From assembly GCA_013812985.1 (NCBI GenBank), contig JACCSN010000631.1:1-6238 (forward strand): a stretch of 6,238 bases of DNA, given 5' to 3'. The notes beneath the pieces are model-generated. The model was not told where the DNA came from. It saw only the letters and a list, made by a program, of their open reading frames with translations, and ran no database searches. A program made the translations under genes and the position numbers. This DNA comes from Hyphomicrobiales bacterium. GTDB lineage: Bacteria > Pseudomonadota > Alphaproteobacteria > Rhizobiales > Afifellaceae. How positions within the stretch are numbered: the first letter of the stretch is position 1; every line of letters starts with the position of its first letter. Shown piece by piece: positions 1,511 to 2,314 of the stretch.

Positions 1511-1556
1511 CTATACGTGTATGACGCGGCCGTAAGCGTCAAGAACGCTCTCGTGC
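1511..1556 (-). repeat. Second copy of the lpdA 3' end (left direct repeat)
   Basis: Positions 1517-1556 match 2275-2314, the true end of lpdA, at 37 of 40 bases with a constant offset of 758. The mismatches are at 1520, 1529 and 1541. Read on the minus strand in the lpdA frame, this copy encodes HESVLDAYGRVIHV followed by TAG at 1513-1511; the real gene ends HESVLDAYGRVIHT then TGA. All three mismatches are third-codon-position synonymous changes (CTC/CTT, GGA/GGC, ATC/ATA), so this copy looks like a former functional lpdA end and not random decay. Homology stops sharply at 1557, where the codon before His is GGG instead of Met. It is a remnant, not a gene: nothing upstream of it continues the lpdA reading frame. 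Confidence 0.88.
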
Positions 1557-1853
1557 CCGCCCCAACGCATGACGATCGATGTAATCTGGAAGCGAGGTGG
1601 TGTCGTCGATCACCGCGCTTCCGAGCTGATCCGCTGTGAGGTTCTTCGCGCCGCTAAGGTCCGCGCCGATCAGTATGGTCTCGTCGAGCTCGGCATCGCG
1701 GAGGTCGGCATTGTCGAACACGGCTCCCGTCGCATCCGCCCTGGACAGGTTCGCTCCAACCAGGTCGCCATCACTCCAATCGGTTCGGCGAATGAAAGCT
1801 CCATTTATATCCAGCCGGAGATGTCCGTTATGCCCCTTTCGATTCGCCAACAT
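1539..1853 (-). CDS. Pentapeptide-repeat protein (C-terminal partner of split gene)
   Basis: A 104-residue protein. Residues about 17-71 show pentapeptide-repeat spacing with central Leu/Phe and small residues two positions before: 'GAFIRRTDW', 'GDLVGANLSRADATGAVFDNADLRDAELDETILIGADLSGA'. Such repeats fold as a right-handed quadrilateral beta-helix; functions vary and cannot be told from the repeats. The following 'KNLTADQLGSAVIDDTTSLPDYI' is the usual end piece of many bacterial pentapeptide proteins, so the C-terminus is complete. The ATG at 1853 has a near-ideal AAGGAGG six nucleotides upstream, inside the preceding gene, which it overlaps by 26 nt in the +1 frame. In relatives, the N-terminal domain encoded by that preceding gene is normally fused to these repeats, so this may be half of a frameshifted gene. 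The last residues (RARERS) and the stop at 1541-1539 fall inside the duplicated lpdA fragment, so the extreme C-terminus was created by the insertion junction. Confidence 0.75.
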   Translation of the reverse strand: MLANRKGHNGHLRLDINGAFIRRTDWSDGDLVGANLSRADATGAVFDNADLRDAELDETILIGADLSGAKNLTADQLGSAVIDDTTSLPDYIDRHALGRARERS

Positions 1854-2262
1854 TCTTGGCCTCCTTCGCTTTCAAATCAGACTTCAAGATATTGACGATC
1901 TCCTGGAGTTCAATGGGCGGCTCTTGATTGCCGTAAGCTTCGCGACTCTCGCGAAAATGCAGCGCCAGAACCTCGATTACGGGCCACGATAAGTCGCGAT
2001 AGTTCTTCGCAATGTAGCCGAGCGTGTATATTGCAGCCAGCCGAACTGAGCGTCTTTGATCGCCCAGTTCCGAGGCGGACCTGTGAAACAGGCCGGCGAC
2101 ATGGGCCCGTCGCGCAAGCTCGGCTTGGCTGCGCGCAGCTTCCGCCTGCGAGCGCGCAGGCGGTATGTTCCGCCATGCCAAGAGCGATCCAACCAGTGCG
2201 GCTACTGCCAACCCGATATTCTGGACGATTTGCGAAAGGGCTACCCACGTCTCCATGCTCAC
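1828..2262 (-). CDS. Membrane-anchored N-terminal domain of pentapeptide-repeat family
   Basis: A 144-residue protein. Residues 11-30 form one hydrophobic membrane segment (QNIGLAVAALVGSLLAW), residues 36-56 a charged alanine-rich helix (ARSQAEAARSQAELARRAH) likely to form a coiled coil, and residues 58-105 a domain with 'SVRLAAIYTLGYIAKNYRD' and 'WPVIEVLALHFRE'. The latter resembles the 'VRLGAIYALERIA...VMEVLTAYVRE' module that precedes pentapeptide repeats in many bacterial proteins of unknown function. Here the frame ends at 1828, right after a run of four G (1836-1833 on the minus strand). With three G the frame would continue directly into the repeats encoded by 1539-1853. The start is GTG at 2262, six nucleotides after the lpdA stop, or the in-frame ATG at 2256; neither has a strong ribosome site, so translation is probably coupled to lpdA. 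It may be a genuine two-gene arrangement or a broken gene. Confidence 0.72.
   Translation of the reverse strand: MSMETWVALSQIVQNIGLAVAALVGSLLAWRNIPPARSQAEAARSQAELARRAHVAGLFHRSASELGDQRRSVRLAAIYTLGYIAKNYRDLSWPVIEVLALHFRESREAYGNQEPPIELQEIVNILKSDLKAKEAKNVGESKGA
1860..1866 (-). promoter_or_regulatory. Strong ribosome-binding site inside the upstream ORF
   Basis: On the minus strand this reads AAGGAGG, six nucleotides before the ATG at 1853. It lies within the coding region of the preceding ORF, where it encodes Lys-Glu-Ala. Its quality favours independent initiation of the pentapeptide-repeat ORF over simple frameshift inactivation, although a chance match within a Lys-Glu-rich segment is possible. 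Confidence 0.6.
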
Positions 2263-2268
2263 GTCCGC

Positions 2269-2314
2269 TCAGGTGTGGATGACGCGTCCGTAAGCGTCGA
2301 GAACGCTCTCGTGC
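2269..2314 (-). repeat. Right direct repeat: authentic 3' end of lpdA
   Basis: Positions 2275-2314 are the in-gene copy of the 40-bp repeat that recurs at 1517-1556. It encodes the last residues of dihydrolipoyl dehydrogenase. Within it, GACGC (2281-2285) and GCGTC (2294-2298) form an inverted pair around an 8-nt centre, also present in the left copy, where one extra base pairs on each arm. Such a pair could be a recombinase core site but is short enough to be chance. Confidence 0.85.

Follow-up and report, generated by a model that had tools for sequence, protein, structure and literature searches.

The window analysed here, a stretch of 6,238 bp, carries on its minus strand lpdA, two small genes, a second lpdA end, a GlsB-like gene and lipA, in that order. 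The lpdA gene (2269 to 3684) is complete and encodes a dihydrolipoyl dehydrogenase of 471 amino acids ending in HESVLDAYGRVIHT (TIGR01350, 590 bits against a cut-off of 409); its relatives, among the matches listed, are 69 to 83% identical. The two small genes, for which we coined the working names penN and penC, encode a predicted membrane or helical protein of 142 amino acids counted from an ATG (1828 to 2256, minus strand; recognised from homologs and a helical model, with an alternative GTG start at 2262 that would give 144 amino acids) and a pentapeptide-repeat protein of 104 amino acids (1539 to 1853, minus strand; PF00805, 44.1 bits against a cut-off of 20.2). The stop of lpdA is separated by 12 bp from the start of penN, and penC overlaps penN at its own start. 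What alignment and codon comparison suggest to be a stranded lpdA end, closing with HESVLDAYGRVIHV and a stop, follows at 1511 to 1556 on the minus strand (copy 1); a gap of 53 bp leads from its stop to the gene for a GlsB/YeaQ-like membrane protein (1194 to 1457, minus strand; Transgly_assoc, PF04226, 44 bits), behind which lies lipA, encoding lipoyl synthase (182 to 1150, minus strand; TIGR00510, 360 bits against a cut-off of 310). Upstream of lpdA are a gene for a SET-domain protein on the plus strand (3795 to 4340) and one for a GARS/ATP-grasp-like protein on the minus strand (4307 to 5656), whose 3′ end overlaps the 3′ end of the SET gene.

An earlier note on this DNA had described a 40-bp direct repeat around the small genes, and the repeat is there: positions 1517 to 1556 match 2275 to 2314 at 37 of 40 positions, with a spacing of 758 bp. 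As that note had also read, both copies encode on the minus strand the same lpdA C-terminus, HESVLDAYGRVIH, plus one residue and a stop, and the three mismatches (copy 1/copy 2: 1541/2299, 1529/2287 and 1520/2278) are all synonymous (CTT/CTC, GGC/GGA and ATA/ATC). The copies differ in how they close. Copy 1 ends with Val-TAG (1511 to 1516), and copy 2, which closes the complete lpdA (2269 to 2314, minus strand), with Thr-TGA (2269 to 2274), the threonine codon being ACC. The description of the cargo needs correction, since it was said to hold only pentapeptide-family open reading frames and just penC has such a match (PF00805, E value of 1.5e-11), penN being without any PF00805 match in the Pfam scan. 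Nor is the cargo cleanly bracketed; the flanking copies are real, but penC runs into copy 1, and its last codons and stop (TGA, 1539 to 1541) lie inside that copy in another frame. The stop of penC is created by the CTT variant of copy 1.

Homologs of penN are about 130 amino acids long. Its AlphaFold model is all helix (mean pLDDT of 75), its Pfam matches to PgaD and HEAT are weak and below cut-off, and Foldseek returned no significant match to its fold in the PDB (best E value of 1.1). The model of penC reaches a mean pLDDT of 88.7. Neither protein has a match in PADLOC; in PHROGs there is none for penN, and penC matches seven families of unknown function. No recombinase was found in either cargo open reading frame with Pfam, NCBIfam, PHROGs or PADLOC, and no relatives of penN were found in viral contigs, phages or plasmids by searches of which one reaches close relatives only. 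A comparison of the region with plasmids covers 20 of 34 records, all 20 of which match just the lpdA end of the query. The Qnr and MfpA proteins share with penC the pentapeptide beta-helix, but its scores lie far below their NCBIfam cut-offs (25 of 360 bits for MfpA and 20 of 480 for QnrE), so there is no ground for assigning penC a function of that type. We also considered the tail copy as an RNA element, for which the window yields no Rfam match, and as a promoter or terminator; between positions 1100 and 2500 a single promoter-like site and a single terminator-like site were found, both outside the tail copies. The hexamer CTTGAC in the lpdA end resembles a −35 element, with no −10 element found.

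To place the repeat in context, we took the 39 coding bases of each locus's own lpdA end, excluding the last codon, and recorded the best ungapped downstream match. In a first set of 125 loci (three genomes entered twice; a further locus, on a contig that breaks off within lpdA, was not used), 123 reached at most 24/39, the exceptions being the window with 36/39 and genome G271, from another family, with 38/39. Among 30 loci from another order, three of them already in the first set, the best downstream match was 25/39. A second lpdA end thus lies downstream in 2 of 155 loci (149 distinct), with the identical two-gene cargo in both, and because the best match elsewhere is just 25/39 the repeat is beyond chance. 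The window seems to be an entire 6,238-bp contig (P0001) of a metagenome, which could suggest that the repeat was made in assembly. However, the longest exact run common to its two copies is just 15 bases, G271 shows the same anatomy in its own separate assembly, and the junction of penC with the tail recurs in another contig of 1,699 bp (P0105), whose penC is 90% identical to that of the window and likewise ends in RARERS. A further sequence (P0108), 58% identical to penC, ends in DRERS, as expected of such a junction, and is probably a third case of it; the contig that encodes it has the same length, 6,099 bp, as that of the penN relative P0002. The argument is weaker for G271, whose copies match exactly over 38 bases; taken together, we regard an artefact as extremely unlikely.

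The earlier note had predicted an empty site in relatives, and relatives have it. In 8 of 11 genomes of the Afifellaceae, the nearest family compared and reached via the lpdA matches listed, the GlsB-like gene stands behind lpdA without cargo, the gap being about 23 to 50 bp in seven and about 170 bp in the eighth (locus L166). Different cargo at the same position, also foreseen, occurs in the other three, with open reading frames of 407 (L157), 113 (L159) and 325 (L160) codons behind lpdA, the first two without an NCBIfam match at an E value of 0.01. None of the 11 genomes has a tail copy, and none has a match to penN by the same query that found carriers in the order of genome G001. In G271 the order is lpdA, penN, penC, tail, GlsB, lipA; it carries the two genes found in the window, with penC likewise fused into the tail, and the tail copy is longer. 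In G363, the genome most closely related to it (lpdA 94% identical), the site is empty and GlsB comes after lpdA. In both cases copy 2 consists of the shared stretch, one sense codon and a stop, followed by penN, and copy 1 has a native-type last codon and stop. The right edges of the tail copies are alike, falling before the last codon; on the left the copy reaches 39 to 40 nt in the window versus about 65 nt in G271.

Across the genomes that carry it, the pair is constant in its location. In evenly drawn samples, which are not a census, penN as a stand-alone gene (an open frame of up to 152 codons) was found in 6 of 397 genomes from the order of G001, in 5 of 385 genomes of a class sample and in 3 of 61 genomes from the order of G426, one of the latter already counted, for a total of 13 genomes. 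In all 13, stand-alone penN is joined by penC at lpd or lipA genes. G271 is one of them. Nine genomes have the order lpdA, penN, penC, lipA without a tail copy; one has GlsB, penN, penC, lipA (G063, with lpdA outside the stretch examined), and two have the pair between sucB (by TIGR01347) and an lpd gene (G350 and G277, loci L083 and L086), the penN frame being broken in L086. Neither the two sucB cases nor the GlsB case has a duplicated end of the upstream gene (best match, 22/39). For comparison we examined 52 loci whose penN-like region belongs to a frame of 279 codons or more (five or more of them come from places already sampled); none has lpd, lipA or GlsB in the flank covered. These longer fused proteins resemble the pair in their penN-like N-terminal region, followed by pentapeptide repeats in L100 and L101, but they are single frames and lie elsewhere.

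Presence of penN is patchy across four families (1 of 30 genomes in that of G271, 1 of 103, 0 of 11 in the Afifellaceae and 1 of 2), and in all 14 cases, the window included, the cassette is 4 to 15 points poorer in GC than its flanks. In a penN tree of 26 rows, from which L172 and L086 (broken frame) were left out, the window groups with P0002 and with P0071, a protein of a Propylenella MAG (support of 97); G271 falls outside this group, L081 and L082 being its nearest neighbours, and its own place lacks strong support. The tail copies also bear their own lineage marks, GRVIH in the window and GKVMH in G271. Judged from these sequences, the window and G271 likely represent two separate arrivals. 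In the titles and openings of abstracts listed, we found no report of a pentapeptide pair at lpdA or lipA, which is no proof of absence.

Which of the two copies is native can be approached from codon usage. Of the codons of copy 1, CTT occurs in 9, ATA in 3 and GTA in 7 of the 11 Afifellaceae versus 4, 0 and 3 of 76 other Hyphomicrobiales loci; GGC runs the opposite way (3/11 versus 38/76). The summed log10 likelihood ratio, Afifellaceae versus other Hyphomicrobiales, comes to +3.7 in copy 1, compared with −0.5 in copy 2. In G271, the orphan copy 1 matches the lpdA end of G363 at 70 of 72 positions and its own lpdA end at 66 of 72, and copy 2 matches the G363 end at 64 of 72. Copy 1 and G363 share GGC and ACA, each absent from the 7 further members of the family, and CTC, present in 1 of the 7. 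On the other side, GAG and TAC at two sites unite both copies of G271 to the exclusion of G363, and a duplication in which copy 2 took all the changes would fit the three distances as well. It is well supported, as far as sequence comparison goes, that the GlsB-side copy is the native end in both the window and G271; that copy 2 is an imported lpdA end is only moderately supported. The earlier note had concluded from the synonymous mismatches that the copies evolved in separate lineages. The mismatches are as it described them, but the conclusion is weaker than stated because most changes lie on copy 2, itself under coding constraint, and because 36/39 is also reached by 10 of 190 pairs of same-peptide tails of other genomes (mean, 32/39).

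A long foreign stretch of lpdA was looked for by sliding identity, in trees of two parts of the gene and by comparing G271 with G363, and none was found. The first 300 codons of the window lpdA group with Afifellaceae (SH-aLRT of 99), and codons 300 to 457 do so weakly (SH-aLRT of 79), their highest single identity being to L029 from another family. Since both parts group with Afifellaceae, an imported piece, if any, would be short or from a near relative. The part trees hold 74 rows, including 45 of the 76 other Hyphomicrobiales loci and 10 of the 24 loci from the family of G271, and two of the 11 Afifellaceae (L166 and L167) fall outside the window's clade in them. The lpdA of G271 is 86 to 91% identical to that of G363 nearly throughout, and identity does not fall towards the 3′ end.

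We give about even odds (a probability of roughly 0.5) to the reading that a block composed of an lpdA end, penN and penC used homology in the lpdA end to enter and left the native end stranded, and that the pair acts with complexes containing dihydrolipoyl dehydrogenase (E3). Here, penN and penC would form an accessory two-gene module that occurs here and there among Alphaproteobacteria, beside genes for E3 and lipoyl synthase. The module, without a recombinase of its own, would arrive by ordinary recombination as a block headed by the end of an lpdA gene and anchored by homology to the resident lpdA end; the incoming last codon and stop would complete the resident gene, and the resident end would be left downstream as a 46-bp remnant beside GlsB. 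That copy 2 is the incoming end is suggested by the sense codon, stop and penN that directly follow the shared stretch, and block entry by the second, independent-looking case in G271 with its empty relative, by the nine genomes whose order lpdA, penN, penC is that expected of a putative donor, and by the fusion of penC into the tail at both loci, the lower cassette GC, patchy presence, separate penN branches and the constant neighbourhood of stand-alone penN described above. The simplest route may be closure of the fragment into a circle and one crossover in the lpdA end, which would give exactly the order lpdA, penN, penC and stranded tail; a homology-anchored illegitimate join is a possible alternative.

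In E. coli, linear DNA is known to be ligated into circles that integrate by a single crossover (PMC3240628). In homology-facilitated illegitimate recombination (HFIR) and with circularised DNA, as proposed here, one homologous anchor is reported to be enough, and the single crossover of a circle leaves flanking repeats of the shared stretch; HFIR is said there usually to delete a similar length (PMC3240628). The duplication fits the single-crossover route better. Both routes are known from elsewhere and would apply to this locus by analogy. In the T6SS clusters of V. cholerae, displaced 3′ ends have been proposed to stem from homologous entry on one side and an illegitimate join on the other; there, as suggested for the window, a module enters via an upstream homologous anchor and the old 3′ part remains behind (PMC5361080). 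The source describes displacement there of whole genes or domains in arrays under toxin-immunity selection (PMC5361080), whereas what would remain in the window is a gene end of 46 bp, downstream of a housekeeping gene.

Against block entry, the cases with a tail copy number two in all, and among the sequences compared no donor was identified and no recombination observed; it is further weakened by the lack of a foreign stretch in the window lpdA and by the GAG and TAC sites that unite the G271 copies. A local duplication, in which the cassette arrived by any route and the host lpdA end was copied meanwhile, by a large target duplication or template switching, with the copies then diverging mostly on copy 2, would account for copies alike at 36/39 and 38/39, well above the average of other same-peptide tails, and for lineage marks common to both copies of each pair. 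It gains weight from G271, whose copies agree exactly over 38 bases and whose lpdA keeps a level identity to that of G363. We nonetheless consider it somewhat unlikely because the last codon and stop are unequal in both cases and because the orphan copies are closer to native relatives than the functional ends are, a free copy that changes less than a coding one being unexpected.

The earlier note had favoured site-specific integration of the kind established for e14 in icd. In that case a recombinase acting in trans would insert a mini-element whose attachment site carries a replacement end, and several features of the locus agree with this: in two families the cargo sits right at the 3′ terminus of lpdA, the gene in the window and G271 closes with a replacement codon and stop, its native end being displaced, and relatives have empty sites. 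The likeness to e14 is close in these respects: icd, which encodes a metabolic enzyme, is described as receiving e14 in its 3′ end, with a replacement supplied and the native end left as a displaced duplicate of 163 bp (PMC6379469). Such an element, however, needs a recombinase and a fixed core. The e14 prophage has its own recombinase (PMC6379469), and the cargo here is two small genes, both scanned, without one; no relative of penN appears in the phage, plasmid or viral collections (close relatives only in one of the searches), the tail copies start at unequal points and differ in length, and in nine genomes the pair sits behind lpdA with no repeat. An e14-like integrative element is thus unsupported, and we find the in-trans variant quite improbable. 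Still less probable, to the point of being very unlikely, is an old arrangement inherited from the common ancestor of the window and G271, mostly lost since and with its copies homogenised by gene conversion. The pair is indeed widespread at this locus in Alphaproteobacteria, but empty sites predominate in both families, the nine genomes with the pair between lpdA and lipA lack a tail copy, and each copy pair has its own lineage marks.

What penN and penC do is suggested by their neighbourhood. Their constant neighbours are E3 and lipoyl synthase genes, including those of the 2-oxoglutarate dehydrogenase (OGDH) operon, and in the nine lpdA-penN-penC-lipA genomes penN starts within a few tens of bases of the lpdA stop; the short gaps in these genomes and in the window make co-expression of lpdA, penN and penC likely. 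From this gene neighbourhood, the two proteins may act on or with E3-containing complexes, penN perhaps as a membrane anchor and penC as its beta-helix partner, in association with lipoyl-dependent complexes. A bolder version, which we regard as doubtful, is that the pair is a dedicated membrane-anchored partner or regulator of the E3-containing pyruvate dehydrogenase (PDH) and OGDH that spreads without a recombinase, with the conserved lpdA 3′ end it carries along serving as homology arm, every arrival thereby completing lpdA and stranding the old end. A pair of unknown function that is found at lpd or lipA loci in 13 of 13 genomes, on both the PDH and OGDH sides, offers a lead, open to testing, towards a partner in central carbon metabolism that has so far gone unrecognised. 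Furthermore, the stranded lpdA ends suggest that small modules can enter behind a housekeeping gene, leaving it unbroken, without mobility genes, and orphan gene ends could be sought behind other genes too.

A separate observation concerns the fifth codon (Leu) of the HESVLDAYG motif, at 1541 to 1543 in copy 1 and 2299 to 2301 in copy 2. It is CTT in 26 of 30 loci from the order of G426, in 9 of 11 Afifellaceae and in 7 of 7 lpdA-penN carriers. By comparison, just 4 of the 76 other Hyphomicrobiales loci and none of the 24 from the G271 family have CTT there, a codon that accounts for only about 4 to 14% of Leu codons at other positions of these lpdA genes.
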